A stretch of 64,000 nt of DNA from a virus, in IMG/VR virus record IMGVR_UViG_3300029267_004887, positions 62,001-126,000 of that record; one strand, written 5' to 3'. The notes below the pieces were generated by a model. It ran no database searches and was not told the DNA's origin. It worked only from the letters and a program-made list of their open reading frames with translations. The position numbers were made by a program, and so were the translations under genes. Each line of letters begins with the position of its first letter. The first letter of the stretch is position 1. Shown here in pieces: positions 26,572 through 54,309 of this stretch.

Positions 26572-26927
26572 GCGTTTACGAAGCGATTGTCAATGTGAAC
26601 ACGGTATTGATTTTGTTGGGGACTGGATTGATTATCTGGATCATTCGTCAGGCTGTTCCGGATGAGATAGAGGCGAAGAAGGTATGGCGGATCATCTTGC
26701 GGTTTTTGCCGATAGCTGTGGGAGCGGGGCTGGCGTTGATTCCTGGGATAAAGCCGATGGAAAACATTTCTCAGTCAGTTATTATTGGTGCTGTCACTGG
26801 TTCGTTATCGTCGAGTACTTATGAGATCGTTAGAGAGTTGATGGGTGAAAAAATCAAGGTGCTTATGGGGAGCCCTCAACAGAGGAAGCGACAGTCTATT
26901 GTTCCATCGATTCGCAAGGGGGGGTGA
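26568..26927 (+). CDS. Small membrane protein, holin candidate
   Basis: 119 residues with three hydrophobic segments, about 10-27 (VNTVLILLGTGLIIWIIRQ), 44-62 (RFLPIAVGAGLALIPGI) and 70-85 (SVIIGAVTGSLSS), and a positively charged C-terminus (QQRKRQSIVPSIRKGG). Size, three-segment topology and basic tail fit class I-type holins, but sequence alone does not prove it and no endolysin gene is adjacent. It could equally be a virion membrane protein. Confidence 0.45.
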   Translation: MSVYEAIVNVNTVLILLGTGLIIWIIRQAVPDEIEAKKVWRIILRFLPIAVGAGLALIPGIKPMENISQSVIIGAVTGSLSSSTYEIVRELMGEKIKVLMGSPQQRKRQSIVPSIRKGG

Positions 26928-26929
26928 AT

Positions 26930-27259
26930 ATGCCAATTATCAAGATGGCATGGCATATATTGAGGACATTTTGGTGGGTAATTATCCTTGTTGTCGTCGC
27001 GATTTTAGTGGGTGGTATTTACATTTTGAATCGTAAAAAACGTGTAAAGATAGAGCATTCACCAGGGGAGAACGCACCGTCTTTGGTGGTTGAGGCGACA
27101 AGGCATGTGCAGGAAGCGGTAACAGATTTCCGAATTGAGAAGGCAATAATTGGTACAAGGATGGACACCAAACGACGGATGTTAGAAGATATTCGTCGTG
27201 ATCCAAGCGGCGAAAGGCGGAGAGAGAGACTAGCTAATCTTCTCAATACTGGCTTCTGA
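26930..27259 (+). CDS. Single-pass membrane protein with cytoplasmic/periplasmic helix
   Basis: 109 residues from ATG 26930; a GTG at 26924 is also possible. The polyG ribosome site just upstream favours the ATG. It has one hydrophobic segment (about 14-32, TFWWVIILVVVAILVGGIYI) followed by KKRVK and a charged, helix-prone C-terminal domain. The topology (N-in single pass plus soluble helix) resembles inner-membrane spanin subunits or anti-holins, and it is adjacent to the holin candidate. There is no firm family match. Confidence 0.4.
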   Translation: MPIIKMAWHILRTFWWVIILVVVAILVGGIYILNRKKRVKIEHSPGENAPSLVVEATRHVQEAVTDFRIEKAIIGTRMDTKRRMLEDIRRDPSGERRRERLANLLNTGF

Positions 27260-27271
27260 ACTGGAGAATGC

Positions 27272-27700
27272 ATGGAATTGCTAAACCCTCTTACGATTGC
27301 CAGGGGGGACAATCGTTACCTACTTAAAAAGATTGAGGTAGCATGTCTTGCTGGTGATGCCGTGGGAAATTGTATGTGTATCAGGGGTGTACGAGTAAAT
27401 GGCAAGTGGAGGGTTGAAACAGCTGATCCGTCGGAACGAGCGAAGATGCCAGCCGTTGGTATATTAATTTCAAAATCGACACCTACCGTTGGTGTTATGC
27501 AGATGTTTGGAGTATGTGATTTATTTACAGCAATGACGCCAGGACAGTTGGTTCTGGTTGGCAAGGATGGAGATGTATTGGATGAAGTACCGGTGATATT
27601 GCCAGGGGATTATTTCTGGGCACAACAAATAGGGATAGCAGTAGCTGAAGATCTGTTGATGTTGTCCGGAGTGGCCTCGATGACTCGGTACTCAGGCTAG
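27272..27700 (+). CDS. Virion/decoration-like beta protein
   Basis: 142 residues with a GGAGAATGC ribosome context. The middle (AVGILISKSTPTVGVMQMFG, 'TPGQLVLVGKDGDV', 'QIGIAVAEDLLML') follows the pattern of DUF2190-like/decoration beta proteins, in which a G..v.V...G..... element is followed by a Q.iG.A strand. A similar C-terminal element occurs in the gene at 28449. It is probably part of a capsid or fibre decoration. Family assignment is tentative. Confidence 0.5.
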   Translation: MELLNPLTIARGDNRYLLKKIEVACLAGDAVGNCMCIRGVRVNGKWRVETADPSERAKMPAVGILISKSTPTVGVMQMFGVCDLFTAMTPGQLVLVGKDGDVLDEVPVILPGDYFWAQQIGIAVAEDLLMLSGVASMTRYSG

Positions 27701-27713
27701 AAGGAGCAGAACG

Positions 27714-28394
27714 ATGGTCATGAAAAAGAAACACATAACGAAAGCGAAGAAGAACAAGATGAAGGATGTGAAAGCGGAAAAGAAAAAGGGAAAGACTTTG
27801 GAGCTTGTGAAGTCTACAGATGCCGCCTTAGATTTTGAGCAGCCTGTGGATGAGAAATCTGTGGATGAGAAACCCGTGGATGAGAAATCTATGAGTGAGG
27901 GTTTGGTGAACGTAGCTGAGGAAAGAGAGAAAGAGAGAAAAGCAAAAGAGGAAGAGGAAAAAGCAAAAGCGGAAGAGGAAGCTCTCAAAGAGAAGAAGAG
28001 ATTAGAACGATTGGCCGAGGCAGCAACAGGTGTTATCCAGGATGCTCGGGTTTTCAAATTGATGTATCTGGAGAAGTGCGCCATAGAGGCGACATTGCAA
28101 ATACAGGTACGAAGGTCGGCGTATGAAGCTCGTATCATCGCACTCAGGCAAGAGATGGCAGGGGTTGTTCAGCAATGGGAAGCGACACAAAGCAAATCTG
28201 TGCGAAAGATCTCTAATGTTAGAAGAGAGATCGAAGAAGATTATGGAATTTATATGAACCATTGGGGCTATGACGACGAAACAGGCGTTTTGCAACAACT
28301 TCCGCAGGAAATAGTAGACGAAAATACAACAAAGCCGGAAAAAGATAGTAAACTTAATACTGAAGCTGACAAAAACACTACTGGAGGTAAATAA
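27714..28394 (+). CDS. Lys/Glu-rich coiled-coil protein
   Basis: 226 residues with an AAGGAG ribosome site. A basic N-terminal tail (KKKHITKAKKNKMKDVKAEK) is followed by an acidic repeat region in which the (D/E)EK(S/P) motif occurs several times (VDEKSVDEKPVDEKS), a long K/E-rich coiled coil (about 68-105) and a helical domain 105-180. It ends in a charged tail. The composition suggests a scaffold, tail-collar or DNA-associated virion protein; the function is not recognised. A 54-base gap follows before the fibre-like gene. Confidence 0.45.
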   Translation: MVMKKKHITKAKKNKMKDVKAEKKKGKTLELVKSTDAALDFEQPVDEKSVDEKPVDEKSMSEGLVNVAEEREKERKAKEEEEKAKAEEEALKEKKRLERLAEAATGVIQDARVFKLMYLEKCAIEATLQIQVRRSAYEARIIALRQEMAGVVQQWEATQSKSVRKISNVRREIEEDYGIYMNHWGYDDETGVLQQLPQEIVDENTTKPEKDSKLNTEADKNTTGGK

Positions 28395-28448
28395 GAACAG
28401 TAGAATTTCTGGTATGCGAGAAGCATATTTAGAGAAGGAGAAAGAAGC

Positions 28449-30311
28449 ATGGCCACGAGGAAATTTTTGTATGGTGATAGTAACGGTTATCATCGAGAGC
28501 AAGATCCCGCTGATGACATAGCTCTTGGTGGGCTCGCGATGAGCGGGAACATTACCATGGGGACGAATCAAATAACTGGTTTGACTGGTGGTGATGCTTC
28601 TGGAGAAGCTTTGGCCTATGGTCAGAGTGGCGCGTCTCTAGCTGGCTTGAGTATCGACACCAGCGAACTAGATATGAACAACCAGCAGATAACCAACGTA
28701 GCAGACGGCACGGTGTCGCATCACGCTGTGAATCTGTCACAGCTTGAGCAGGCGGTTATCACAGGTGGGACAATCAAGGAGCTGTTGCTCCATGAAGATC
28801 AGGTTGACGATACGGAAGGTGTGTTGGCATCTTCGGCATTGACCATCGCAACGAATCCAGCCTCGGGCGATACGATTACGTTGACAGATGGCACGACCAC
28901 CAGGACGTACGGTGCTGGCACAGGTGGCGATGTACAGTACACCATCGGTGCTACCGTAGCAGACACCATGCAGAACCTGGCTACTGCGATTGACGGCGAC
29001 GGTTCTGGTGCTTGGGGTGCGACATTCACGACGGATCTGGACTCGATTGATGCTGACGGTGTTGTGGTTATCACAGAGGAAGACAACGACGGTGCAGCTT
29101 CTGAGATTTACGGTACCTGGACAACTCAGGCGAATTGTCAGATCGTCGATTACACTGAAGAAACGCAGTACAGCAAGAAGACGACGACAGCACTTCCTAC
29201 TTCCGATCCAGCGGCTACCAACTTTGGTATTCGCAGGACTCAGGCTTCCTTGTCACCTGGTGAGCTTCACTATGTTGAAGACAATGACACCATTTACGGA
29301 TGGGACGATGATGCTGAGCAATGGAACGTGATGTCCGGTTCTGCATCTCTTCCGGACGCGACGTCTGCATCGGGTGGTGGAGTCAAGGGTAAGGTCACCT
29401 TCGACAGAGACTTTGGTCTTTTGGTCAACACTGGTATCGCGAAGATTTCAGTAGCGGCCAACACAGGGCTAGGGTTTGACGGAAATGGCGATCTTCAGGG
29501 TGTTGCCGACACCACAGCGGGTATGGAGCTTGGCGCGAATGGTTTCGGAATCGATATTGCTGCGTCTAATCCTGGTGTTGGTTTCGACGGCAGCGGCGAT
29601 CTCGAAGCGAAGGCGGATACCACGGCTGGTATTGAGATAACGGCAAATGGTATCGCGATTGACATTGGCGCTACCAATCCAGGCGTTGGTTTCGACGGGT
29701 CTGGAGATCTCGAAGCCAAGGTTGTGGCAGCTGGTGGTGTTGAGAAGGCGGCGACTGGTCTTCAGATCAAGATCGACGACACTCCCGATACCTTGGATGT
29801 TGACGCAGACGGGCTCAAAGTCGTCGGTCTTCCTTCTACATTCAAGATCAACGACACAGCAGTTGGCGCGACGGTAACAGCGGCCAATCTCGACACGGTA
29901 ACCGATGGGTCGAATGCAGATGCGATGCATACTCACGCAGGTGTCGACGAGGCGAAAGCGATTGAGAATTCGCTGACGGCAACTGAGAATGTAACCATTG
30001 GCGACCCGGTATACGTTGATACCAATGGTAACGCTGTGTCCAAGGCAGATGCCAGTAACGACAGCAAGTACGAAACAATTGGTGTAGCCAAGGCGACAAT
30101 CACGGCCACCAATCCTGTAGACGTCGTTTCATTTGGCCCTTGCGATGTTATTACTGGCGCGACAGCTGGAGACAGGTATTACATGGCAGCGGGCGGTGGA
30201 TTGACTACTACGGTTCCGGCAGCTGGAAACTGGGTTGTCGTCATGGGGTTTGCGCTGGATGCAAATACTTTGTTCGTCATGCCGAGGATTCTGCACAAAC
30301 GGTTCGCATAG
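28449..30311 (+). CDS. Large fibre-like virion protein with triplicated beta repeats, C-rich coding
   Basis: 620 residues. Its N-terminus (LGGLAMSGNITMGTNQITGL ... LDMNNQQITNVADGT) is a phage fibre entry motif, and 130-225 is a 'DTITLTDGTTTRTYG ... ATVADTMQNLATAIDG' module. At about 340-430 the unit 'GFDGSGDLEAKADTTAGIE.TANGIAIDI' occurs three times. The C-terminus (about 520-620) has 'IGDPVYVDTNGNAVSKADAS' and 'YYMAAGGGLTTTVPAAG', resembling DUF2190-like decoration proteins. Codon use is visibly richer in C and G than neighbours, and the gene is followed by the strong hairpin at 30328, suggesting high expression. Confidence 0.6.
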   Translation: MATRKFLYGDSNGYHREQDPADDIALGGLAMSGNITMGTNQITGLTGGDASGEALAYGQSGASLAGLSIDTSELDMNNQQITNVADGTVSHHAVNLSQLEQAVITGGTIKELLLHEDQVDDTEGVLASSALTIATNPASGDTITLTDGTTTRTYGAGTGGDVQYTIGATVADTMQNLATAIDGDGSGAWGATFTTDLDSIDADGVVVITEEDNDGAASEIYGTWTTQANCQIVDYTEETQYSKKTTTALPTSDPAATNFGIRRTQASLSPGELHYVEDNDTIYGWDDDAEQWNVMSGSASLPDATSASGGGVKGKVTFDRDFGLLVNTGIAKISVAANTGLGFDGNGDLQGVADTTAGMELGANGFGIDIAASNPGVGFDGSGDLEAKADTTAGIEITANGIAIDIGATNPGVGFDGSGDLEAKVVAAGGVEKAATGLQIKIDDTPDTLDVDADGLKVVGLPSTFKINDTAVGATVTAANLDTVTDGSNADAMHTHAGVDEAKAIENSLTATENVTIGDPVYVDTNGNAVSKADASNDSKYETIGVAKATITATNPVDVVSFGPCDVITGATAGDRYYMAAGGGLTTTVPAAGNWVVVMGFALDANTLFVMPRILHKRFA

Positions 30312-31335: not shown

Positions 31336-31547
31336 TGGTAGATGGAATTGCACGGGTTTTATACACGGCTGACGGCGAAGAGATAACCGTTTACGAAAAG
31401 GCTGGAGTTCAGTCTATCGCTATTCAGTCAGTTGATATGATTCGTTTATTGAGAGACATAAAACAAGAATTGCGTAAGATGAATTTCCAGTTGAAAATTA
31501 TCACTGGATTGAACGTGAGCGAAAACGACTTGGAGGGACAAGAATGA
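31335..31547 (+). CDS. Small phage protein, helical C-terminus
   Basis: 70 residues, starting inside the preceding TAATG and overlapping the next gene by ATGA. It has an N-terminal beta part (ARVLYTADGEEITVYEKAG), then helix 'SVDMIRLLRDIKQELRKMNF' and a 'ITGLNVSENDLEG' tail. This small protein type recurs next to fibre genes in other phages, in my recollection. No function is known. It is probably an accessory to the adjacent virion proteins. Confidence 0.5.
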   Translation: MVDGIARVLYTADGEEITVYEKAGVQSIAIQSVDMIRLLRDIKQELRKMNFQLKIITGLNVSENDLEGQE

Positions 31548-32143
31548 GCGGTATTATTATAGACGGTTCGGGGAAAGGTTTTAACGCCAAGGTCAACCAA
31601 CGTCAAGAGCTTCAGGTGCAATCCAGGGCGATTCCTCATGCAGCATTGAAATGCGTTAGGGGAGAAGTTTTTTTGGTCTCTACACCGTGGAGAAATATAG
31701 ATTCCACTGGTGGTAGGCTTATTTGGATGTTGTTTTCAGATCCTGTCAAATATTTGGTAATAGAACAACTGATGATTGCTTGGGATGGTGGAAGTACCAA
31801 CTATAATAAACCTTTGGAAGTTGAATATATACTTGGTGACAGTGCGCCGACAACAGGTACTGCTGCTTGGGCAGCAGCAAATACAAACTCCTTGAGCACT
31901 AACGAATTAGATGCGACGTTGTTAGTTTGGGACGGTACAACAGGAAGCGGTATGACTGGGCATACGCCAGGTGCAGCAGCAGGAAGATTACAGGCAGCTC
32001 CTGGTTATACGTCATCTCTAGTTGAGGGGAAGATGATCGTTGGGTCAGGGATGACATTATCAGTTAACGTCAAAGCGCCAGAAACAGGCCGGATGTCTTT
32101 TTCTGGGTATTTATATTTGTTTGATCCAGAAGTAGACGGTTAG
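31544..32143 (+). CDS. Accessory virion protein with DGSGKG N-terminal motif, first copy
   Basis: 199 residues overlapping the previous gene by ATGA. It begins 'IIIDGSGKGFNAKVNQRQEL', a leading motif shared in diverged form by the next two genes (DGTGRG, DGAGSG). The remaining sequence is beta-rich with 'WDGGSTNYNKPLEVEYILGDS' and 'VEGKMIVGSGMTLSVNVKAP', typical of a jelly-roll-like virion domain. The shared start suggests a common attachment element for a set of appendage proteins (inference). Confidence 0.55.
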   Translation: MSGIIIDGSGKGFNAKVNQRQELQVQSRAIPHAALKCVRGEVFLVSTPWRNIDSTGGRLIWMLFSDPVKYLVIEQLMIAWDGGSTNYNKPLEVEYILGDSAPTTGTAAWAAANTNSLSTNELDATLLVWDGTTGSGMTGHTPGAAAGRLQAAPGYTSSLVEGKMIVGSGMTLSVNVKAPETGRMSFSGYLYLFDPEVDG

Positions 32144-32152
32144 GAGGAACAA

Positions 32153-32731
32153 ATGGGGTTTCGTATTGAAGATGGCACTGGTCGTGGTCGGACTGCGAAA
32201 GTAAACGAGTTGAATCGTCTTGAGGTTTCGGCTGTTACGCTCACGGAGATTTCAGACATAGCACGTAGCGGAGGTGCCTTTTCTGTTGTCGCAAGGCATA
32301 CGATCCAAGCCGATTCCACTGAAGAAAATTTGTTGTATATCAAGAACAACAATGACGCCAAGTGTATACACTTGCACAGCATCCGTCTTGCGGCAAAGGT
32401 CACAGCGGCTGGTCTCTTAGTTATTAGTTATTTCGATCCTGTTCGAGTCAGCGGGGGGACTGAAAAAGAGGCGGTGCAATTGAATCGGCAAAAAGCGAAG
32501 GCGGCAGATGCCGATTTGTATGATAATTCATCAAATGATCTTTCGTTGACGTTGACAGCGGCGAAGGAATTCGCAGAATTTCGTCTTGGTGCCACTGGCA
32601 CGGCGTTTTTTGAGTCAGATGGTGCGTTGGTTTTGGGGCCTGGAGATACATTTGGCATGACGGCAGAGGGGATAGATGGGGATTTGGTTACTGCTTCGAT
32701 TTTCTTTTTTGAGGCTGAGGAGTCGAAATAA
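32153..32731 (+). CDS. Accessory virion protein with DGTGRG motif, second copy
   Basis: 192 residues with an AGGAGG ribosome site. It starts 'RIEDGTGRGRTAKVNELNRL', the same opening unit as the previous gene. The rest has beta-type sequence ('HTIQADSTEENLLYIKNNND', 'RLAAKVTAAGLLVISYFDPV') resembling phage appendage modules. It lacks any repeats or catalytic motif. It is one of a set of three consecutive genes built on the same N-terminal unit. Confidence 0.55.
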   Translation: MGFRIEDGTGRGRTAKVNELNRLEVSAVTLTEISDIARSGGAFSVVARHTIQADSTEENLLYIKNNNDAKCIHLHSIRLAAKVTAAGLLVISYFDPVRVSGGTEKEAVQLNRQKAKAADADLYDNSSNDLSLTLTAAKEFAEFRLGATGTAFFESDGALVLGPGDTFGMTAEGIDGDLVTASIFFFEAEESK

Positions 32732-32734
32732 AAA

Positions 32735-34354
32735 ATGCCTGTTGATGTGCACATAAAAGACGGGGCTGGAAGCGGATGCACTGCCAGCGTGACTCCGGTA
32801 GGTGGAGGTAGGCCAGAACTTGCTGTGTCCATCGAAGGGCCTTGGGATCGTAGTAAATCTGGAGATATAAAGAAGATTTCTGCAATTGAGTTATCGACAA
32901 ACGGGAAGAGTGTTGCGGGTTTTCAAATTACTGGCGAATGGGTTGGCAATATTGTTTTTGAGAGCACGATAAATGGGTATGATTGGACGGATTTGATCTG
33001 TTTCCCGACAGCTCCTGGTTCTACATTGGTTATCAGCACGTTGGTGAACGGATCATTCCGGGCGGCTTGTGGAGCATTTCAGTCTGTCCGCGTGCGTGCC
33101 GAATCGTGGACTAGTGGTACGGCCCGTGTATTGCTTCGTGCCTCGCCATCACCGGCAGAGCTTGTTCCGTTGTCGATCAATAGTGCTGGACGTTTGCTGG
33201 TAGATGTAGAGCCTTTGTCTGATCGAGGATTTCGCGCAGTAAAAGCTAATTCAGCTGGGCTTCCAGCGGTGTTGACGTCAGAAGGCACGGCACCTTTTGC
33301 TGTTGGCGGTGAAACGTTAAATATCGACATCAACGGAGATTCTCAGACTTGTAATTTCCCAACTTCAGCAGAATCAGCTGGTACGTCGACGTCTGGTGCT
33401 GATCCATCGGTTGATCTTGGTGGTAGCCGTAAAATGAAAGTCAGTATCGATGGTGGTGCATCAACAGAAATTGATATTGGGAAAGATCGAGTTGGTGGGC
33501 CTGATATTGCGTCAAGGATTGAAGATGAAATTCAATCCGACGTTCCGAACGGGAGCAGTGCTACTTGCGATTACAATGATACGACTCCAGGGCGATATGT
33601 TGTCACTAGTGGCTCGACAGGCAGCAGTTCGTCGGTGGTCATTGTTAATTCTGGCAAAGACAATATGGCTGATAACTTGAAGCTTGGTGTCGCTAATGGT
33701 GGTACTGAGGTATCGGGTGAGTCGGGGGATGATTATTCGGCAGATGACGTAGTGGTCGAATTGAATGCGCAGCTTACCGATATTTATGCGTATGTGGACA
33801 ATGGAGACGTCGTAATAGAGACACAAGACATCGGTGATTCTGCAACGTTAGAAGTGACAGGTGGCGCAGCAAATACTGATTTAGATTTTCCAACTGACGA
33901 GGTGACGGGCTCGCCAGCCACAGGTGCTGTCAATTTGGCAGTAGATGGATCGACGACTGAGCAAGTATTTCGGATTGAACAACATGCCTCGCGAGTGTTT
34001 ACGGTCACACGGCTGATCTATTCCATACGAGATTCTGATATGGCGTTGAACAAGTTCGGTGGGATTACCGCGTTGACAAATGGAGTGATTGTCAAGGTTG
34101 AGAATTCAGGTGAACCCTTGAGAGAGTGGTTTACGTTTAAGACCAACTCGGAATTATTGGCGAGAGCGCGTGATGGTGGCCAGCTGATTGTCGATGCTTA
34201 CACAGGTGGCGAAGATTTGATTCATGCTGATTTTTTGTTAGAGCCTGGGATACCGTTACGACCTGGGAGTGTGGACAAGATTCAGATTATTGTAAGGGAT
34301 GATCTGTCCTCGCTTACGAATTTTGATGTTTTGGCAGAGGGTTATCTCACATGA
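32735..34354 (+). CDS. Large accessory virion protein with DGAGSG start and two-domain body
   Basis: 539 residues. It starts 'HIKDGAGSGCTASVTPVGGG', related to the previous two genes. A beta domain at 30-150 is followed by a Gly/Asp-rich module at 185-400 with 'GDSQTCNFPTSAESAGTSTS' and 'NLKLGVANGGTEVSGESGDD', which resembles flagellin/hook-like inserts. The C-terminal 130 residues ('FGGITALTNGVIVKVENSGE' ... 'IIVRDDLSSLTNF') are paralogous to the C-terminus of the gene at 34743. It overlaps the second cysteine-cluster gene by 4 bases (ATGA). Confidence 0.55.
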   Translation: MPVDVHIKDGAGSGCTASVTPVGGGRPELAVSIEGPWDRSKSGDIKKISAIELSTNGKSVAGFQITGEWVGNIVFESTINGYDWTDLICFPTAPGSTLVISTLVNGSFRAACGAFQSVRVRAESWTSGTARVLLRASPSPAELVPLSINSAGRLLVDVEPLSDRGFRAVKANSAGLPAVLTSEGTAPFAVGGETLNIDINGDSQTCNFPTSAESAGTSTSGADPSVDLGGSRKMKVSIDGGASTEIDIGKDRVGGPDIASRIEDEIQSDVPNGSSATCDYNDTTPGRYVVTSGSTGSSSSVVIVNSGKDNMADNLKLGVANGGTEVSGESGDDYSADDVVVELNAQLTDIYAYVDNGDVVIETQDIGDSATLEVTGGAANTDLDFPTDEVTGSPATGAVNLAVDGSTTEQVFRIEQHASRVFTVTRLIYSIRDSDMALNKFGGITALTNGVIVKVENSGEPLREWFTFKTNSELLARARDGGQLIVDAYTGGEDLIHADFLLEPGIPLRPGSVDKIQIIVRDDLSSLTNFDVLAEGYLT

Positions 34355-34752
34355 GAAATTGTGATGGGTGCACGGCGTGTTGTACGTCGTTGGCAGTACC
34401 TGAATACGATAAAAAGACTAACGATGCGTGTGAGCATATTTGCATTGGGTGCAATATATACGCAGAGCGTCCCGAGAGTTGTCGTACTTTTCGTTGCACT
34501 TGGTTGAGTGAGGGCACTGGGTTTAAGGAATTGAGTATGCGTCCAGATCGGTGTGGTGTGGTAGCTGCGGGGGGGCCGACAGATCACGGTATTGGGATGT
34601 ATTTTTACGAGGTGTGGGAAGGTGCGATTGAAGAGGAGCGTATTCAGTTGATTATCGAGAAATACAATGTGAAATTTCCTGTTTTACTGATTCCTCATAA
34701 GGGGAACAAGGGACGATTATTTGCTGTTGGGGAGACCGGGCAATGCAATTAA
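34351..34752 (+). CDS. YkgJ-like cysteine-cluster protein, copy 2
   Basis: 133 residues overlapping the preceding stop. Cysteines at 4, 7, 10, 11, 27, 31, 34, 44 and 49 follow the same layout as the 30940 protein, with GCNIYAERPESCRTFRCTWL. The second half (SMRPDRCGVVAAGGPTDHG ... IIEKYNVKFPVLLIP) is parallel to copy 1. The two copies therefore come from a duplication that also copied the neighbouring virion C-terminal domain. No catalytic residue beyond the metal-binding cysteines is apparent. Confidence 0.65.
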   Translation: MRNCDGCTACCTSLAVPEYDKKTNDACEHICIGCNIYAERPESCRTFRCTWLSEGTGFKELSMRPDRCGVVAAGGPTDHGIGMYFYEVWEGAIEEERIQLIIEKYNVKFPVLLIPHKGNKGRLFAVGETGQCN

Positions 34753-35753
34753 CAGAACCAAAAATTACTCGTGCTCTAGATAACACTCCGCTTACGGCTG
34801 ATCGTCTTTTAAGGCTTGGGCAACAATCATTCAAGCGTACCGATAACGGTACTGAACCCATGAACGTAAACGGCATTCCTGTTGGGACAGTGACGAATAT
34901 TTGGGATGGTGATGGGAGTTACTGGACGGTAAGCGGTACAGGTTCTGCGACGACAGGATCAGCACATGCTGGCACGTATGGTTGGGATTCTGGAGTTGCG
35001 GGTAAAGACGTCACTACGGTGTTTGATAACGGGTCCATGATCGACGTTGGTGGAAGTTATAACAGCTTGAAATTTTGGTTGAATACAAAAGCGTTTCCAA
35101 GTGGTTCAAAGTTGTTGGTTACTTGGCTGAATGCGAGTGATAGTAGGGTGGGCAGCGAGCTTGATGTCGATGCTTACATTACGAGTTATGATATTGATAT
35201 TTGGCAGCAGGTGGTGATTCCGATTTCTGATTTTGGGCTTAGTGGTAACATTCAAAAGTTGGAGTTAAAGTACAAAAAGGAAGCAGGGCAACAATTTTGG
35301 TTTGACGAATTTGGTTTGTATCCGGCTGGTGGTGGAGGGCCTTACATATTTCAAGTTGTGGCACCTGATGCGAGCACGGTTTATCATATTTCGATGTTGG
35401 TGTTGATGATCTCAGAGGTAGAGACCGGGTGGGATGACGATACGTTTACAAATATCACAGCGTTGACAAATGGTTTATTGTTACGACAGCGGGATACCGA
35501 GTTGGAAGAAGACAATATCTTGTGGAGTTTCAATTCTAGAGACAACATCGATTTATTTGGAAGGTATCATCCGCAGGAGAATTTCATTTTCAATAACGGC
35601 AAAATGATGGTTGGTTTCATGGTCAAGCCTGGTAAGGCGTCTATAGAGATCACCGATACGCAGGTTTTGGAATTTGTTGTGCGGGATGATTTGTCGAGCA
35701 TTGACAACATTCGGGCGTATGCTCATTACGGGGTGGAGGTGATAGGTGGTTGA
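34743..35753 (+). CDS. Virion protein with jelly-roll-like domain and shared C-terminal domain
   Basis: 336 residues overlapping the previous gene by 10 bases. Residues 55-200 ('YNSLKFWLNTKAFPSGSKLL', 'DIWQQVVIPISDFGLSGNIQ', 'QQFWFDEFGLYP') look like a carbohydrate-binding jelly-roll module (fold style, not proven). Residues 205-336 are homologous to the C-terminal domain of the 32735 protein ('ITALTNGLLLRQRD' ... 'VVRDDLSSIDNI'). It could be an appendage that recognises a glycan (inference). Confidence 0.55.
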   Translation: MQLTEPKITRALDNTPLTADRLLRLGQQSFKRTDNGTEPMNVNGIPVGTVTNIWDGDGSYWTVSGTGSATTGSAHAGTYGWDSGVAGKDVTTVFDNGSMIDVGGSYNSLKFWLNTKAFPSGSKLLVTWLNASDSRVGSELDVDAYITSYDIDIWQQVVIPISDFGLSGNIQKLELKYKKEAGQQFWFDEFGLYPAGGGGPYIFQVVAPDASTVYHISMLVLMISEVETGWDDDTFTNITALTNGLLLRQRDTELEEDNILWSFNSRDNIDLFGRYHPQENFIFNNGKMMVGFMVKPGKASIEITDTQVLEFVVRDDLSSIDNIRAYAHYGVEVIGG

Positions 35754-39980: not shown

Positions 39981-40553
39981 ATGTCATTTGATGAACCTGT
40001 AAATTTTGGAAAGATTTCGGCCAGTAAGGTAACAGCTATCATCGGTGCTCTTGCAGCGTTTATGGCAGCGGCTATGCCGGGTGTTATTGCCATGGTGGAT
40101 AAGACTGGCGACATCGCTCAGGAGAAGGCTCAGAAGTCTGAGGAGAAGACGGTGTTGGCTTACGAGTTGTTGAGATCTCGTTTGGATAATATTCAGATAC
40201 AGTTGAACGATTTGAAAGATCGGGACATAGCTCAGAACAATTTACTTTCTCAAATGTTGTTAGAGCGAGCGGCACAGTTGAAGTCAGAAACTAGTCAGCA
40301 AAGACGACGTAGGGAGAGAGCCAGGGCTGCTAGATCTACGCTTTCGTCGACGAGGGGCTTTGCAGGCTCAGGAGGGGGAGGTGGCGCTCCTGCGAACAGT
40401 GCCCTAGATGTGAGCCTTGACGAGCCAGAGAAGGCGGCTGGTAAGCTGCAACAGCAAATCCAAGAACAGGCTCAGGAGCCGGATTACTTACAACAGGCTC
40501 AATTACCTAAAGATTTGGAAAGAGAATGGGTCAAAAGCAAGAGCAAAAAATGA
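39981..40553 (+). CDS. Membrane-anchored coiled-coil protein, possibly lysis-associated
   Basis: 190 residues from ATG 39981 with AAGGAG; an ATG at 39963 would overlap the preceding gene. One membrane segment (about 16-35, VTAIIGALAAFMAAAMPGVI) is followed by a coiled coil (40-105) and a Gln/Gly-rich tail (QQQIQEQAQEPDYLQQAQ) ending in basic residues. It is adjacent to the u-spanin candidate, so it may be an anti-holin or membrane-linked accessory, but there is no firm assignment. Confidence 0.4.
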   Translation: MSFDEPVNFGKISASKVTAIIGALAAFMAAAMPGVIAMVDKTGDIAQEKAQKSEEKTVLAYELLRSRLDNIQIQLNDLKDRDIAQNNLLSQMLLERAAQLKSETSQQRRRRERARAARSTLSSTRGFAGSGGGGGAPANSALDVSLDEPEKAAGKLQQQIQEQAQEPDYLQQAQLPKDLEREWVKSKSKK

Positions 40554-41131
40554 GTTTGAGACGACGTCAGTATCTGGCTGAAGGCGATTATTACTCTTTG
40601 AAGTCAGGGATGAAGATCAAGGAAATTGCCAAGCGCTGGCAGGATAGCTGGGAAAAAGCGTATGACGACAGTATGCCGGTGTTGTTTCCAGCCAAGGAAG
40701 TATGGCCGTATCGAGAGTATACTTGGACACGAGTGTCATCTCGTCCGGGGTTTGCGTGTGTTAAAAATAAATCTGTACAGTTGAGTGGTGAGTTGAAGTG
40801 GGATGCGATCAAGGAAGATATGCAGAAGTATGGTTGGAACAAGAGAGAGCCGTTGATATTGAACATTGGTCAAAAAGGTGGGATCAAGGTTGGGGAAGGT
40901 AATCATCGGCTGGCTATTGCCAGGGAGCTGAGTATCAAAAGTATTCCAGTTACTGTCATTTTCCAAGCGGGCAATGTAGTAAAGAGTAAACAGCCGGGGA
41001 AGTCCACGGTGAGCATCACCTCTCAAGCTGTAAAAAAAGTGACAAATCAGTATTCAAAATCTTCTAAAAAGATTTCTAAAAAAGAGCAAAAACAGATAGA
41101 CGACATCATAGATTTGCTTTTCACACGCTAG
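40550..41131 (+). CDS. ParB/Srx-fold protein
   Basis: 193 residues from ATG 40550 (ATGA overlap); an in-frame ATG at 40526 is possible. Residues 80-130 (ELKWDAIKEDMQKYGWNKRE, PLILNIG, 'GIKVGEGNHRLAIARELSIK') contain the 'G.GNHR..iA' motif of ParB/sulfiredoxin-fold proteins, in which the loop binds a nucleotide. Phage members are annotated as ParB-like nucleases; nuclease activity here is not evident from sequence. The C-terminal tail is basic and lysine-rich. It closes the second half of the structural region, before a promoter candidate. Confidence 0.65.
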   Translation: MSLRRRQYLAEGDYYSLKSGMKIKEIAKRWQDSWEKAYDDSMPVLFPAKEVWPYREYTWTRVSSRPGFACVKNKSVQLSGELKWDAIKEDMQKYGWNKREPLILNIGQKGGIKVGEGNHRLAIARELSIKSIPVTVIFQAGNVVKSKQPGKSTVSITSQAVKKVTNQYSKSSKKISKKEQKQIDDIIDLLFTR

Positions 41132-41712: not shown

Positions 41713-42372
41713 ATGATGAATCGACATAAAGGTAAGCTTATTGTGTTCGAAGGAGCAGATGGTTCTGGCACGACGACACAGTCATACCGGATGACCAATA
41801 GGTTAGTTAATGAATACGGAGACAATAACGTATTGTTTACACGAGAACCCACTAATGGATCGATTGGAGAATTACTAAGGAGATGTCTGAGTAAGAAATG
41901 TACAGACGTCAGCGGGAGAGCTATAGAAATGTTATTCAGAGCTGACAGAATCAGTCATGTAGAAAGAGTTGTCAGACCAGCTTTGGAAGAAGGAATGTTC
42001 GTTGTCTGTGACAGGTATTATCCGTCAACGTTGGTTTATCAAAGTGTTAAAAATACTTTGCAAGAATCGATAGAATCTATGTTCGACATTTATCATAGGA
42101 TGTGTTCAGAGGACATGCTTTTATCGCCAGATATGGTGCTGTATTTGAGTACTGAGTTGTCAACCATGGTCAAGCGACGTCGTGAGCGTGGAACCGAGGA
42201 AGAGTTGTTCGAGAAGGAAGACTACCAGGAGAAGGTTGCCGAGTTGTATGAATACTGGGTAAAGAGTGGGGTTTTTGCTGAATGTAAACGTGTGAGAGTA
42301 GATGGCAACCAGGGTATGGATAAAGTAGAGAAGGATTGCTGGGATCACGTCTGTGGAATTCTGTCCAAATAA
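41713..42372 (+). CDS. tmk: Thymidylate kinase with altered Walker A
   Basis: 219 residues with an AAAGGAG ribosome site. FEGADGSGTTTQ (12-23) aligns with the Walker A of dTMP kinases, followed by 'LFTREPTNGSIGELLRR', 'DRYYPSTLVYQSV' (the DRY motif near residue 99) and a lid region 'RRRERGTEEELFEKEDYQEK'. The enzyme phosphorylates dTMP to dTDP for DNA synthesis. The invariant Walker A lysine is replaced by Thr20 (GSGTTT instead of GxGKTT), so activity may be altered. The other catalytic landmarks are retained, so I do not call it a pseudogene. Confidence 0.8.
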   Translation: MMNRHKGKLIVFEGADGSGTTTQSYRMTNRLVNEYGDNNVLFTREPTNGSIGELLRRCLSKKCTDVSGRAIEMLFRADRISHVERVVRPALEEGMFVVCDRYYPSTLVYQSVKNTLQESIESMFDIYHRMCSEDMLLSPDMVLYLSTELSTMVKRRRERGTEEELFEKEDYQEKVAELYEYWVKSGVFAECKRVRVDGNQGMDKVEKDCWDHVCGILSK

Positions 42373-42406
42373 TCAAATCTGATTGAGATCAACTAGTCGA
42401 TTTTGT

Positions 42407-42525
42407 AGGTGTAAAATTGAACCAAAAGTACTGCATGTGGGATCACAGGTGTAAAATTGAACCAAAAGTACTGCATGTGGGATCACAGGTGTAAAATTAA
42501 ACCAAAAGTACTGCATGTGGGATCA
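42407..42525 (+). repeat. Three tandem 40-bp direct repeats (iteron-like)
   Basis: Units at 42407-42446, 42447-42486 and 42487-42525 begin AGGTGTAAAATTGAACCAAA and end TGTGGGATCA, nearly identical in all three. The third has one A-for-G change. They are directly adjacent, so they are not CRISPR repeats. Confidence 0.9.
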
Positions 42526-42708
42526 TGGGTTTGCTGTAAGTATTATTAATTATTACATTGTTTAGTTGGCGGATTGTTGTAGATTTGCAGGTTTTTTTTG
42601 TTATTTCTGTGCAAATTGGGGGTGCATCAGGGTGCACACATAAGAAGATCCACTAAGGTAGTCATGTTGTATTTAAATTATAAGACTGTTTCGGATCGTG
42701 CTTCGCAC

Positions 42709-42745
42709 TCGCGACGTCTAACCGACGTCGTTTTTTGTTTTTGTG
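42709..42745 (+). repeat. Left arm of long inverted repeat
   Basis: The 37-base left arm begins CTCGCGACGTCTAACCGACG and continues into the T-rich TTTTTTGTTTTTGTG. The arm at 42882-42918 is its reverse complement with about one internal base change. Confidence 0.85.
42712..42736 (+). terminator. Rho-independent terminator hairpin within the left arm
   Basis: CGACGTC (42712-42718) pairs with GACGTCG (42724-42730) around a TAACC loop, directly followed by TTTTTT at 42731-42736, a strong terminator signature for rightward transcription from the tmk gene. Confidence 0.7.
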
Positions 42746-42881
42746 TATACTAATACTTCTTTCAATTTCTTTTTTATTTTTGTGTAAAACAAATTGACTT
42801 TTTGAATATCAAATTTCAAAAATTGTTTTTGCATTTTACGTTACGTACACGTATTTTAAATATCGAATAGAATTTTAATAT

Positions 42882-42918
42882 ACAAAAAACAAAAAACGAC
42901 GTCGATTAGACGTCGCGA
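42882..42918 (-). repeat. Right arm of long inverted repeat
   Basis: Starts with an A-rich stretch (ACAAAAAACAAAAAACGACG) and continues GTCGATTAGACGTCGCGAG. It is the reverse complement of the left arm and so mirrors the terminator hairpin, giving a minus-strand terminator facing the left one. Confidence 0.85.
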
Positions 42919-42940
42919 GACATTGACGTTAGTCAATGTC
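42919..42940 (+). other. Perfect 9-bp hairpin next to the right arm
   Basis: GACATTGAC (42919-42927), GTTA loop, GTCAATGTC (42932-42940). It is not followed by a T-run, so it is more likely a protein- or RNA-structural element than a terminator. Confidence 0.6.
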
Positions 42941-43162
42941 GATCTGGTTCCGGATCTAACTCTAAGAACAATTTGAAAAAATGTTTAAAGTGTTGCGCCC
43001 GAATGAAAAACAAATTGAAAAACAAATTTGACAAATACAAAGACAAATATTAAAAAAACAAATATCGAAAAGACAAAGATAAAAGTTAAAAAACAAACAA
43101 GATTCCCCCTTGGCTAGAAAAAAAGAAAAAGAAAGACGAATTTTGGTAAGGCGAGTGTGTGA

Positions 43163-43176
43163 TGAACTAAAGTTCA
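43163..43176 (+). promoter_or_regulatory. Palindromic operator candidate
   Basis: TGAACT AA AGTTCA is a perfect 6-bp inverted repeat just upstream of the -35 box at 43180. Its position suits activation or repression of the promoter for the genes from 43302. Confidence 0.4.
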
Positions 43177-43179
43177 TTT

Positions 43180-43208
43180 TTGTGTGTTTTTTCTCAGAAA
43201 TGTGATAC
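43180..43208 (+). promoter_or_regulatory. Promoter candidate for the 43302 operon
   Basis: TTGTGT at 43180-43185 and TGATAC at 43203-43208 are spaced by 17 bases. Transcription would start near 43215, giving an 87-base leader before ATG 43302, which is preceded by AGGAGG. It follows the palindrome. Confidence 0.5.
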
Positions 43209-43301
43209 ACTTAACACTGGTTTAGTTGCCTCGCTAGTAGCGGGAGGGAGGAGAATCGATGAAACAACCTATCAGATTAATGGTCAGCAGGAGGATGAGA
43301 T

Positions 43302-43889
43302 ATGGCTAAGAGTGTGGATGAAATACTTTCTGATGTGCAACCTTCGCGATCTGAGAAGCAGTGGAAGATCATCAAAGAAGTTGATGATCGCAAAAAAAGT
43401 GCTCTCAGACGGATTGCAGAGGCCGCTGTTGTTCACGGGCTTGGTAACTCGCGTGATCTGGAAACACAGCTCAGGAGGCGGCTGAGGGCCGCTCAGGAGG
43501 CTCGTGTGTCAGAGGCAGAGGCTTTGGCAACAATGGCAGAGCGGCTTGGGGATTTTTCTACCAGCATTGAATGGGTAGAGCTTAGGATTGCGAAGGCCGT
43601 TGTGTATAAGGGGTATTGCCGGAACAATGTAGCGCTGACTTTCTTTGATTATGTCTCACAGGATGGGAGGATCCGAGACCGGAGTGGTGTGCGCGTGTCT
43701 GTGCATGTGAGGAGAGGTGTGACAGGGGTGTATGTAGCTGCTTTGTATCACGGTAAATCGTTGAAAGCGGTTGGAAGATCAGAGGAATCTGCTGGTATGG
43801 CTGCTAATACAGCGTACCTGGCCTACTATGGATTAGAGGAGGAGGATTTGCCCACGGGATTATGGGGGGTTGACAAAACTGACAGATAG
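43302..43889 (+). CDS. Hypothetical protein, first gene after the control region
   Basis: 195 residues with AGGAGG 8-10 bases upstream of ATG. The first 95 residues are charged helix (SRSEKQWKIIKEVDDRKKSA ... AEAVVHGLGNSRDLETQLRR-like). The C-terminal 75 residues have three short strands and a final helix ('VSVHVRRGVTGVYVAALYHG', 'SEESAGMAANTAYLAYYGLE'), a beta-beta-beta-alpha layout distantly reminiscent of dsRNA-binding domains; this resemblance is weak. No known family is identified. It starts a new transcript, so an early or regulatory role is plausible. Confidence 0.55.
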   Translation: MAKSVDEILSDVQPSRSEKQWKIIKEVDDRKKSALRRIAEAAVVHGLGNSRDLETQLRRRLRAAQEARVSEAEALATMAERLGDFSTSIEWVELRIAKAVVYKGYCRNNVALTFFDYVSQDGRIRDRSGVRVSVHVRRGVTGVYVAALYHGKSLKAVGRSEESAGMAANTAYLAYYGLEEEDLPTGLWGVDKTDR

Positions 43890-49775: not shown

Positions 49776-50354
49776 ATGAATCGGATGGGTAAGAGGAATG
49801 ATGCAGGATCTTTGAGTAAGAAAAATAAAAATAGTAAGACTAAGAACAGTAAGACTAAGAACAATAAATCAAGAGACAAAGAGGAACGGATTGGCTTTTC
49901 CATGGGGGGCGAGATCGGAGGTCTTGGTGAGGTGGAGATGGCTTTGCCAATATTTCTTGACGACCGTTTGAGTCCTAAATGCAAGTTGTTGATGTGTGCT
50001 TTGATTTGTTATGTTGGTGAGCACAGAGTGCTTCGTCCTGAATATCAAAAGATGGTGAGAGCTTTTGGTATACCTGATTCAGAGTATAGTGATTTATTTG
50101 GTCAATTGTTAAAAGTCGGGCTGGTTAGAATAGCCAAAAATGCAGCCGGGGAGATTTGTCATTTTATGATAATGCCTGTAGCTAGAGCGTATGCTGATGA
50201 AGATGGTGTTTTGAAAGATCATACAGTTAAGTTTTTTCGTGATGCGGGGTATACGCATAGAATGGATCGGTTGATGCAGTGGAGGAAGTTTTCGGAGAGT
50301 GAGGAGGGGCCAGGGGAGCCGGATTGGTCGTTGATGCCGGAGCCTTTGGAGTAA
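49776..50354 (+). CDS. Winged-helix protein, paralogue 1 (replication initiator-like)
   Basis: 192 residues with a Lys/Asn/Ser-rich N-terminal tail (NKNSKTKNSKTKNNKSRDKE). 'VEMALPIFLDDRLSPKCKLL' (about 50-70) aligns with the opening of the two following genes, then 'MVRAFGIPDSEYSDLFGQLL KVGLVRI' is a helix-turn-helix ending. The C-terminal 60 residues resemble those of the 50791 gene ('DEDGVLKDHTVKFFRDAGYT HRMDRL'). The three genes are tandem paralogues. They precede the helicase loader, so an origin-binding/initiation role is likely (inference). Confidence 0.55.
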   Translation: MNRMGKRNDAGSLSKKNKNSKTKNSKTKNNKSRDKEERIGFSMGGEIGGLGEVEMALPIFLDDRLSPKCKLLMCALICYVGEHRVLRPEYQKMVRAFGIPDSEYSDLFGQLLKVGLVRIAKNAAGEICHFMIMPVARAYADEDGVLKDHTVKFFRDAGYTHRMDRLMQWRKFSESEEGPGEPDWSLMPEPLE

Positions 50355-50385
50355 TTTGATCATTTTTAGGGATTTGGATGATGTC

Positions 50386-50706
50386 ATGAGAAGTAATCAT
50401 TTTGGGATAAAAAGTCATTTGCGTTCATTGGAAGATAGTGAAAATACAAGACTTGATTTTGTGGTTTTTCCGTTGTCGATACTCGCAAATAAACGATTGA
50501 GTGTTAATGCTAGGTTGCTGTGGTGTGTGTTGAGTAAATTTTGTATTAGAAAGTCAGAGTGTACACCTACTGTTGAGATGCTGTCTGAGGAAATGGGTAT
50601 AGGCAGAAGAACAGTTTTTAAGAGCTTAGGACAACTGGTGCAAGCTGGTTTGGTTGTTAGAAAACAACGGTTTCGCAGAAGTACTATATACAAGTTGCGA
50701 ACATGA
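50386..50706 (+). CDS. Winged-helix protein, paralogue 2 (short form)
   Basis: 106 residues from ATG 50386. The compact HTH_36-type winged helix comprises 'VVFPLSILANKRLSVNARLL', 'CTPTVEMLSEEMGIGRRTVF' and 'LGQLVQAGLVVRKQRFRRST'. There is no C-terminal extension, unlike the neighbours. A candidate DNA-binding regulator or a competitor of the long paralogues. Confidence 0.6.
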   Translation: MRSNHFGIKSHLRSLEDSENTRLDFVVFPLSILANKRLSVNARLLWCVLSKFCIRKSECTPTVEMLSEEMGIGRRTVFKSLGQLVQAGLVVRKQRFRRSTIYKLRT

Positions 50707-50743
50707 TTATCTTGGTCGCATGGATACATTGAACGTGTGAACG

Positions 50744-50758
50744 TTTTGTTCATTTTTT
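50744..50758 (+). promoter_or_regulatory. TTTTGTTCATTTTTT element, promoter or terminator
   Basis: The 15-base element, also at 41156-41170, includes TTGTTC (50746-50751), with a poor GGCAAT box 17 bases on. TGAAC/GTTCA arms at 50738-50752 followed by T6 alternatively form a weak terminator. It lies in the 84-base gap before the 50791 gene. Confidence 0.3.
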
Positions 50759-50790
50759 ATTGGGTGATGGCAATCTAGGGAGAAAGTAAA

Positions 50791-52038
50791 ATGGCAATTG
50801 ATCATGATACAAAAAAAGATGAATCTTTTTTGAATTATAGCGAAGCTGAAAGTCTTGGTTTTATAAAATTTCCATTGCCAATATTGCTCGATGAACGGTT
50901 GGATTTTGTTGATAAAATATTGTGGTGTTTATTGTGTAGGTTTTGTGATGCTGAGGGGAAGTGTTACCCGAGTGTTGAACGGTTATCTGAAGGGTTGGGT
51001 TTAGAGAGACGATCAGTTTTTAGTCATTTGTTAAAACTGGAATCGGTTGGATTGCTTACTAGACAGAAACGGCAAGGCCGTTCGACTGTGTATGTCTTAC
51101 GAGCGTTGGGTCTTGTGTATGATGATCAACGTGGTTTTTTGAAAGATGAGGCGTTTGGGTCATTGTGTAATGTTGGAGAGTCTAACCGGATGAAGACGTT
51201 GTTACAGGACAGGGAGGTTCGGGTAAGAGAAAAGGTTTCAGGTGTGGCTGAATATGTGGGGGGTCGATTGACTACCGAGACAATTGTAAATGTGGCTACG
51301 GAAATGGGTGCTGACGTAACCATGGTGGATACAGACAAGGTCAAAAGGATGGCTACAGAGATGGCTACAGAGGTGGTCACAGGGGAAGTTCTTGGGGAGG
51401 TTAGGGGGATGTGTCAGAAGACGTTCAGGAAAGATTCAGAAGAAGAGTTCGAGGATGAGGATTTCGAGGATGAGGATTTCGAGGATGAGGATTCTGAGGA
51501 TGAGGATTCTGAGGAAAAATTTGAGCGGTTAATGGGTGCTGTTAATGATAATTTGAGGAGTTCGAAAAAAGCTGCAAAAAAACGTGTGGAATCGCGGATA
51601 AAAAGACAATCCGATGCTGAGTTTCAGGAGTCGGTTCGAAGATATAAACAGAAAAAGAAAATGGAAAAACCTTTAAATGTAAGGGATGTAGAGACTGCTT
51701 GGATGATCGAGGTTCGGAAAATATGGCCAAATAATATTTCCCTGACTGCTCCATGGACATTGGCGAACAAAGGTATTGCAAAAAGGTTTATCAGGCTATA
51801 TGGTGCTGAGTGTACCATCGATACTTTAACGGGTATCATTCAAAACTGGGATGAATATGTTGAGCGATACGGAATAACCGGGTATCCTAATCTTAGGGTT
51901 ATTTCGGGTTATTCTGAGACATGGTTCTCAGAATTTGAGCTGGGTAACAAGCAGCCAATGACACCGAAGGAGAAAGCCCTGTCAGAGAGGGAATATGATG
52001 AAAAGAACAGTGCAAAACAAAAAGAGGTCATATTCTGA
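50791..52038 (+). CDS. Winged-helix replication initiator-like protein, paralogue 3 (long form)
   Basis: 415 residues with an AGGGAGAAAG ribosome site. Residues 22-110 are the same winged helix ('IKFPLPILLDERLDFVDKIL', 'CYPSVERLSEGLGLERRSVF'). A linker at 210-250 contains five near-identical acidic pentapeptide repeats (FEDED/SEDED type). Residues 290-395 form a separate helical domain ('WTLANKGIAKRFIRLYGAEC TIDTLTGIIQNWDEYVERYG'). It overlaps the helicase loader gene and probably recruits it to the origin (inference). Initiators with acidic linkers are known in phages and plasmids. Confidence 0.6.
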   Translation: MAIDHDTKKDESFLNYSEAESLGFIKFPLPILLDERLDFVDKILWCLLCRFCDAEGKCYPSVERLSEGLGLERRSVFSHLLKLESVGLLTRQKRQGRSTVYVLRALGLVYDDQRGFLKDEAFGSLCNVGESNRMKTLLQDREVRVREKVSGVAEYVGGRLTTETIVNVATEMGADVTMVDTDKVKRMATEMATEVVTGEVLGEVRGMCQKTFRKDSEEEFEDEDFEDEDFEDEDSEDEDSEEKFERLMGAVNDNLRSSKKAAKKRVESRIKRQSDAEFQESVRRYKQKKKMEKPLNVRDVETAWMIEVRKIWPNNISLTAPWTLANKGIAKRFIRLYGAECTIDTLTGIIQNWDEYVERYGITGYPNLRVISGYSETWFSEFELGNKQPMTPKEKALSEREYDEKNSAKQKEVIF

Positions 52039-52651
52039 TGGTGAGCGGAGAAGGCTTACACAAGGCTCACTGGAAAGAATGCATTTGCCGTCTAGGTTTT
52101 GGAATGTAATGTTTGATCGGATCACGAATGAAGGTGAATGTAGAAAAATGATAGAAACCTATGTGCGCAAAATAGGAAAAGCGATGCTCAAGGGGTATGG
52201 TATGGTGTTGTGGGGGGCTAATGGTGTGGGTAAAACAGCTGCTGCTGCGTATATTTTGAAAGAGGCTAGAAGAAGGGGAAAAACTGGTTTATTCATAACG
52301 GTGAGTCAATACATACGAGATAGTATGGAAAAGTCGCGATTTGATGAGAGCTTTACAATGGATCAACGGGCTAGGTCAGTAAATATGCTAGTGTTAGATG
52401 ATCTTGGAAAGGAATTTCGTAATTCGACGGTGCCCAAGCATACTATTGAAGGGATGCTGGAGGATTTACTTAGAGAGAGATCTTCAAATTTGAGATCAAC
52501 GATAATTACATCAAATTTGAGTCCAAAACAGCTTACTGAGGCTTATGGTTGTTCGTTTTATGAAGTGATTCGAGAAACGAGTCCCCTGGTGCAGATGCTT
52601 GGCCTGTCCCACAGGGACACGGGAAAAGATGATTTGGTTCAGTTTTTTTAA
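51995..52651 (+). CDS. DnaC/IstB-type AAA+ helicase loader
   Basis: 218 residues, overlapping the previous gene by 44 bases, with an AGAGAGGG ribosome site. GANGVGKT at 74-81 is the Walker A and 'VNMLVLDDLGKEF' near 130 the Walker B with its DD pair. 'STIITSNLSPKQL' near 170 is the sensor 1 region, followed by a C-terminal 'ETSPLVQMLGLSHRDTG' region. These are the features of DnaC-type loaders, which place the replicative helicase on DNA. The N-terminal part binds the helicase in this family. It precedes the DnaB-type gene at 53023. Confidence 0.75.
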   Translation: MMKRTVQNKKRSYSDGERRRLTQGSLERMHLPSRFWNVMFDRITNEGECRKMIETYVRKIGKAMLKGYGMVLWGANGVGKTAAAAYILKEARRRGKTGLFITVSQYIRDSMEKSRFDESFTMDQRARSVNMLVLDDLGKEFRNSTVPKHTIEGMLEDLLRERSSNLRSTIITSNLSPKQLTEAYGCSFYEVIRETSPLVQMLGLSHRDTGKDDLVQFF

Positions 52652-53022: not shown

Positions 53023-54309
53023 ATGGACTTGGATTTGAGTTTGTTGAGTGCCGTTGTTCGTAATGAGGGGGATTACTTTCTAGCCAAACGGGATGGTATC
53101 ATTACGACGATGTTGGAGGGGGTTGCCATTGGGGGATGGGAATTCATCGAGGATCATGTACTCCAATATGGCAAGGTTCCGTCTGAAGAATTTTTTTCGG
53201 CTAAGACCGGTATTGAGCTGGATGATCCCCCCGAAGATACGGCAATTCTTATTAACGATCTCAAGGATCGGGTGTTATGGAATAAGCTGAAAGCAGCACA
53301 TGAGAGCAGTAGTGAATTTCTGGGGGACAACTGTCCAAAGAAAGCATTGGACGTTTTGCAGAAAGCGGTCCAGCTTGCTTATTCAGAGGGTATCGCGGGT
53401 GGCAAGATTGGAAACCTGTTGTCACTGGGTGATGAGGTTGTAGAGTATTATGATCGAATAAAAAATGGTGAGAGGGGTATATCGTCACCATGGCAAGCGA
53501 TGTCGGATATGACACAGGGATGGTGGGGTGGAGATTTTGTTGTTTTTGTTGCGAGGATGTCTGTAGGCAAAACTTTTGCGATGTTGATGCTGGCGTTGAC
53601 GGCGTGGCTAGAGGGGAAGAAGGTCTTGTTCGTCGGTACAGAGATGACACGTATGAAGCTGGCTTTTCGTTTTTATGCGTTGCATTTGAAGTTGCCGTAC
53701 AACGAATTTCGTAAGGGGCAGCTGGGCACGCTTCAAGAAAGCAAGATGCGAGAGTCTATTGAGAATCTTTCAAAGGAAGATGGAATCGATGTTGTTGGGG
53801 ATGATTTTAATGCGGAGATAAAAGAAATTGAGTTGGCTGTTGAACAAGTTCGGCCAGATATATTGTTTGTTGATGGTCTTTACCTCGTAAAGAATTTGGG
53901 CAAAAGTCGTCACGAGAGGGTGTCTAACACGGCGGATGATTTGACGAGATTGGCCAAGCGTCACGATATACCAGTGATTGCCAGCACTCAGTTCAACCGG
54001 GATGTGGCTAGTAATAGCAGGACATCTGTGGATGCTGCGAATGTTGGGATTACGGATGTCATCGGGTGGAATTGCTCTGTGATGTTTGCGTTATTTCAAA
54101 CAGAAGATATGAAGGAAGATAAAATCATGGGTTTTCGTCCTTTGAAATTACGGGAGGGGGAGGGACATGATTTTTTCTCTAAATGGGATTTTGGTACTAT
54201 GGATTTTTCGCAAGATGACATAGATACGACGGGGGATTTCCAGGATGGTGATTATGATTATGTTCCTGAGTCAGAGGATGGAGAGGACGACGACGACACG
54301 TTGTTCTAG
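53023..54309 (+). CDS. DnaB-type replicative helicase
   Basis: 428 residues. Walker A ARMSVGKTF at 177-185, 'LFVGTEMTRMKLAFRFYALH' near 205 and 'RPDILFVDGLYLVKNLGKSR' near 275 (Walker B with FVDG) are DnaB/RecA-type helicase motifs; 'PVIASTQFNRDV' near 320 is a DnaB-type motif H3/H4 region. The N-terminal 150 residues are helical and may bind primase or loader. It unwinds the fork 5'-3' (family knowledge). The C-terminal tail is highly acidic (DGDYDYVPESEDGEDDDDTL). Confidence 0.8.
   Translation: MDLDLSLLSAVVRNEGDYFLAKRDGIITTMLEGVAIGGWEFIEDHVLQYGKVPSEEFFSAKTGIELDDPPEDTAILINDLKDRVLWNKLKAAHESSSEFLGDNCPKKALDVLQKAVQLAYSEGIAGGKIGNLLSLGDEVVEYYDRIKNGERGISSPWQAMSDMTQGWWGGDFVVFVARMSVGKTFAMLMLALTAWLEGKKVLFVGTEMTRMKLAFRFYALHLKLPYNEFRKGQLGTLQESKMRESIENLSKEDGIDVVGDDFNAEIKEIELAVEQVRPDILFVDGLYLVKNLGKSRHERVSNTADDLTRLAKRHDIPVIASTQFNRDVASNSRTSVDAANVGITDVIGWNCSVMFALFQTEDMKEDKIMGFRPLKLREGEGHDFFSKWDFGTMDFSQDDIDTTGDFQDGDYDYVPESEDGEDDDDTLF

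Follow-up and report, generated by a model that had tools for sequence, protein, structure and literature searches.

The gene-free gap of 929 bases at positions 42373-43301 of the window (the whole analysed stretch of 64,000 nucleotides, which covers bases 62001-126000 of an uncultivated virus record of 142,254 bp) heads the DNA-copying genes of a contractile-tailed phage, and it is tentatively read here, with almost an even chance of being right, as the main bidirectional (theta) replication origin of the phage, fused to a transcription-unit boundary. An origin at or near the gap is partly supported, as it would fit the minimum of the GC skew, the genome-wide low in GC content, the location of the gap directly ahead of the replication operon and the presence, at the corresponding place in a diverged relative, of a conserved element that is not coding. 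Among the points against it are that the mirrored arm of the gap is missing in the relative, that approximately 215 bp lie between the candidate iterons and the AT-rich core, and that the initiator gene is 7.5 kb off. Replication origins have seldom been located in large uncultivated phages, and the gap offers a bounded candidate whose initiator is named, together with a conserved 41-nt signal and a second phage for comparison.

The same G-rich 28-bp tandem repeat (AGGGGGGGAACACTAGGGGGAAAATACC) is present at both ends of the record, at 1-106 (L006:1-106) and at 142225-142254 (the end of L010), and for this reason the record is probably a nearly complete circular map; the neighbourhood of these G-rich ends is gene-poor. 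The contractile-tailed phage has a T4-like major head protein, a T4-like portal, a tail sheath and baseplate proteins. Nearly all genes of the record lie on the + strand, and leftward genes are almost absent. The gap sits between the thymidylate kinase gene (41713-42372), its left neighbour, and the replication operon, and it is probably non-coding, since the longest stop-free run in any of its frames is only 82 codons. Upstream of it, a ParB-like match (40526-41131) was considered as part of a partition system and rejected, the matching stretch being short and weak.

The operon encodes a phrog_1362 protein, the winged-helix initiator, a DnaC/IstB-like helicase loader (51995-52651, + strand), a DnaB-like replicative helicase (53023-54309, + strand), a primase, a second helicase and a UvsX-like recombinase. 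Its first gene (43302-43889, + strand) specifies 195 aa, has no function assigned to it and has a homologue in the relative; the structure model of its product was too poor for use. For the 43907 protein, a suspected DUF932-like identity was abandoned because no Pfam or NCBIfam model fits, and phrog_1362 alone is claimed. The initiator gene (50791-52038, + strand) lies approximately 7.5-8 kb downstream of the gap, and its product is the candidate binder of the gap. An iteron origin is expected to have its initiator encoded, and here such a protein is recognized by matches to phrog_270 and HTH_36 and by an initiator-like fold, its cognate role being that of a candidate. The model of this protein has low confidence overall (mean pLDDT 57), with the winged-helix domain as its best part, and its top structural matches are the plasmid replication initiators 4pql, 4pt7 and 5kbj, entries that describe initiator or Rep-DNA structures; searches of Pfam and NCBIfam gave no match to the RepA_N family. 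The proteins encoded just upstream, at 49776-50354 and 50356-50706, resemble the DNA-binding domain of the initiator and could compete for its sites. Three consecutive genes (49776-52038) thus share a related winged-helix DNA-binding domain where the relative has one, and the set therefore probably arose by duplication.

The left part of the gap contains three tandem direct repeats with a period of 40 (42407-42526, + strand), present as the first-pass annotation had described them and unique in the genome. Copies 1 and 2 are identical, and copy 3 agrees at 93% when compared in a 44-nt frame. Exact direct matches in the gap reach 52 nt, compared with a maximum of 14 in 300 dinucleotide shuffles, and the repeats are not a chance product of composition. 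They are tandem direct repeats in the non-coding DNA of a replication region, as is expected of iterons, and at 40 bp they exceed the usual iteron size. The approximately 215 bp that separate their end from the AT-rich core contain the terminator-like hairpin of the left arm.

The first-pass annotation had also reported two mirrored 37-base arms, each with a terminator-type hairpin, facing each other across about 135 very AT-rich bases. The inverted arms are real and face each other, with both T-tracts aimed into the core, but they measure 35 nt each, are 97% complementary and are spaced by 142 nt. The left arm (42708-42742, + strand) is a rightward terminator-like hairpin with a T-tract, and the right arm (42885-42919, - strand) is its leftward mirror image; each contains a hairpin of 8 pairs with a loop of 5, followed by TTTTTTGTTTTT, so that both have the GC-rich hairpin and run of T that mark an intrinsic terminator. 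A scan of the whole genome for hairpins with a T-rich tail placed the left arm among the top four rightward sites and ranked the right arm first of the leftward ones. The longest exact inverted match in the gap is 20 nt, compared with a maximum of 18 in 300 dinucleotide shuffles. The arms are not a product of chance and composition, and they occur once in the genome, with no further copies. Between them lies the candidate unwinding element, an AT-rich core of 142 bp (42743-42884, no strand assigned) with 20% GC. Of all 142-bp windows in the record, the one lowest in GC (19%) begins at 42748 and falls nearly all within this core; the next lowest site has 26%.

The layout of the arms continues outwards. 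The 9-bp hairpin of the earlier description (ACATTGACGTTAGTCAATGT, 42920-42939, no strand assigned) lies outside the right arm and is mirrored by a small hairpin outside the left arm (GTGCTTCGCAC, 42698-42708, + strand) which that description had missed. Beyond each of these outer hairpins there is a GATC-containing stretch, and the mirror layout is thus somewhat longer than was first said. Further to the right, the A-rich tract that had been pointed out, with its repeated ACAAAT, is present at approximately 42990-43130 (+ strand). Within it, a possible Lys-rich mini-ORF (43003-43053) and the spacing of the ACAAAT repeats by multiples of three are probably due to chance in A-rich DNA. A possible extended -10 promoter element for the replication operon (TGATACACT, 43203-43211, + strand) was picked out by eye; a sigma-70 scan of the leader found no clear promoter and did not list this element. 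An enrichment of GACGTC in the arms was dismissed, as its genome-wide count is near the Markov expectation. A protelomerase target or hairpin telomere was likewise rejected, the record having no PF16684 match and the centre of the arms not being a perfect palindrome. An exact-pattern search for the arms gave no match, and no Rfam family was matched.

Cumulative GC skew had been suggested as a check on the origin. Raw GC skew is positive over the entire record because nearly every gene has the same orientation, and only the detrended curve is informative. The detrended cumulative curve reaches its lowest point at 105,473 of the record (43,473 of the window) and its highest at 37,966 of the record; block bootstrap places the minimum at 100-113 kb (38-51 kb of the window) and the maximum at 31-43 kb. 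The arcs from 105 kb to 38 kb measure approximately 75 and 67 kb, near half a circle each, and these near-equal arcs match the expectation for two-way replication from the gap, which is support and not proof. At 4-fold sites there is a two-level skew structure (p=0.005, gene-order permutation), and the G fraction rises from 0.69 (98.4-104.4 kb) to 0.77 (105.3-112 kb), a step that brackets the gap (p=0.04). The detrended minimum is thus consistent with the suggestion, but the best skew boundary at 4-fold sites is at 96.5 kb, and 105.5 kb trails it by 1.4 log units. Furthermore, most structural genes are in the low-skew arc, and the class of the genes may therefore account for part of the step, although the portal block is in the high-skew arc.

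No relatives at the DNA level were found among cultured phages. Alignment-based searches with the phrog_1362 protein identified one diverged relative, represented by two near-identical contigs (L098/L181, 19.2 kb; L182, 38.0 kb), of which L182 keeps the gene order that begins at 43302 over approximately 34 kb, mostly at 25-65% protein identity. Over this collinear stretch the sole non-coding DNA match between the two phages is a 41-nt block in the gap, which the earlier description does not mention and which is a useful new lead. The block (GGGGGTGCATCAGGGTGCACACATAAGAAGATCCACTAAGG, 42618-42658, + strand) aligns with L182:101-141 and reads GGGGGTGCAATTCATTGCACCCATAAGAAGATCCACTTAAG in the gene-free leader of the relative, with a score reached in 0 of 500 shuffles. 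It carries a small dyad, GTGCA-N6-TGCAC (42622-42637), whose arms are kept in the relative, whereas the spacer differs at constant length. Downstream of its block, the relative has a rightward terminator-like hairpin (L098:49-68) and then the lowest-GC 100-bp window of its contig. The mirrored leftward arm is absent, and the facing terminators are therefore not a conserved design. Neither contig reaches far enough upstream to cover the place of the 40-bp repeats, as one starts within the block and the other only 100 bp upstream of it, in sequence that is poly-G-like; these approximately 100 bases just upstream of the block (L182:1-117) are either real G-rich DNA or an assembly artefact. Short blast matches to the 40-bp repeats elsewhere were put down to chance. 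Exact-pattern searches with the block yielded no true further relative, the matches in L183 and L184 being located in unrelated sequence. Other phages with a phrog_1362 protein (L099-L112) have that gene in common with this one, plus some scattered further genes, but lack the setting of the gap, and were set aside.

Based on this anatomy, the following sequence of events may be proposed for an origin in the gap. The winged-helix initiator would bind the 40-bp repeats, the conserved block or both, and the AT-rich core, located just past the left terminator, would melt; the DnaC-like loader would then place the DnaB-like helicase on the core, and primase would start both forks. The left hairpin would terminate the transcript that comes in past the thymidylate kinase gene, and any leftward transcript would end at the right hairpin, so that, as proposed, the core would be kept free of RNA polymerase. 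The replication operon would have a promoter of its own, perhaps near 43200. Insulation of the core by facing terminators is a weaker claim than the origin itself, since the relative keeps the rightward terminator only. Of the insulated origin put forward in the first-pass annotation, the origin is partly supported, as it would be in accordance with skew, GC content, operon and block; the insulation is less so, given the missing mirrored arm, and the insulated origin stays a minority case because the facing terminators are not conserved in the one relative. It is accordingly rated as unlikely that facing, near-identical terminators isolate an unwinding element on both strands, together with a new conserved 41-nt cis signal for an initiator encoded 8 kb away. 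If it were true that facing terminators shield an unwinding element, the gap would provide a clean natural test of the effect of transcription on origin firing.

The main rival to an origin is that the gap serves transcription control only, separating the upstream unit from the replication operon, an explanation that is somewhat less probable; a boundary between transcription units, with an early promoter, could have the anatomy of the gap too. According to this explanation, transcription from upstream stops at the left hairpin, the AT- and A-rich DNA serves as promoter, an antisense RNA terminates at the right hairpin, and the repeats or the block hairpin regulate the promoter or terminator read-through (attenuation or antitermination). 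The terminator-like form of both arms, with their T-tracts, speaks for it, and so does the order of block, terminator, AT-rich leader and operon that the relative keeps. In both phages the block can fold into an RNA hairpin of 6 bp whose innermost pair has changed on both sides, which also favours transcription control. However, transcription control leaves unexplained both the skew minimum and the fact that the lowest GC of the genome falls exactly at the gap, and the leader lacks a clear promoter in the sigma-70 scan.

A further explanation, rated as improbable, is that the gap is a packaging start (pac) or a genome end, with the terminase cutting at or near the block. The fact that both contigs of the relative stop at the block or just upstream of it would agree with such a site, as would the location of the experimentally mapped pac site of phage ICP1 in a gene-free stretch of 1.3 kb (PMC7145576). 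Nevertheless, the record reads through the site uninterrupted, it is ordinary for contigs to break at repeats or poly-G, the structural genes lie a long way off, and the second gene-poor, G-rich stretch, at the record ends, is an equal candidate. Least probable of all is a true origin inside the initiator gene, as in lambda, with the gap as a mere regulatory leader: lambdoid origins do sit in the middle of gene O (PMC7466680), and 50791-52038 contains four 15-bp repeats (51439-51515) and two 12-bp repeats (51348-51371), but the 15-bp repeats encode an acidic FEDED run, are not AT-rich and have no counterpart in the initiator of the relative.

Returning to an origin in the gap, the analogy with known systems suggests that its mode of action would resemble that of the iteron origins known from lambdoid phages and from the RepA_N satellite PLE, as a candidate member of that class. 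The lambdoid origin, served by the O initiator (PMC7466680), resembles the gap in having direct repeats and an AT-rich tract in a replication cluster whose genes include those for a helicase loader and for an initiator that has a DNA-binding N-domain. Unlike it, the phage has its 40-bp repeats 8 kb upstream of the initiator gene and not within it, its AT tract is framed by terminator-like hairpins at approximately 215 bp from the repeats, and it encodes its own DnaB-like helicase and primase. In PLE, the iterons are in a non-coding region outside repA (PMC7145576). The RepA_N-type initiators of staphylococcal plasmids and PLE have winged-helix N-domains, and the best matches of the phage initiator model are in line with these, although the likeness rests on a low-confidence model and no RepA_N sequence family was matched. 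The genome of ICP1 is, like that of this phage, of myovirus size, and it has one two-way origin and a separate gene-free pac region; its theta origin was deduced from read depth, the mapping being based on sequencing in the course of infection (PMC7145576), whereas the candidate described here comes from sequence analysis. With regard to the arms, paired intrinsic terminators between transcription units also consist of a GC-rich hairpin followed by a T-tract, but the pair in the gap differs from ordinary ones in being an inverted duplication whose T-tracts face an AT-rich core, and the genome that carries it has hardly any leftward genes.

Other observations concern the remainder of the record. 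The strongest rightward terminator-like hairpin of the genome is at 140696 of the record (L010:15196-15230), between a transposase-like gene (phrog_506) and the G-rich end. Intein-splicing domains are present in both of two genes at 26498-30247 and 31337-35734 of the record (L007:10998-14747 and L008:2-4231), the T4-like portal gene and the gene of 1249 aa that precedes it, and the latter occupies the place expected of the large terminase, an identification that was not obtained. A contig of 25.5 kb (L179, L180), related by its head protein (68% identical), matches the intein-bearing genes too. Finally, the tail-region genes at 14727-15289 and 18224-19701 contain long in-frame tandem repeats of approximately 150 bp.
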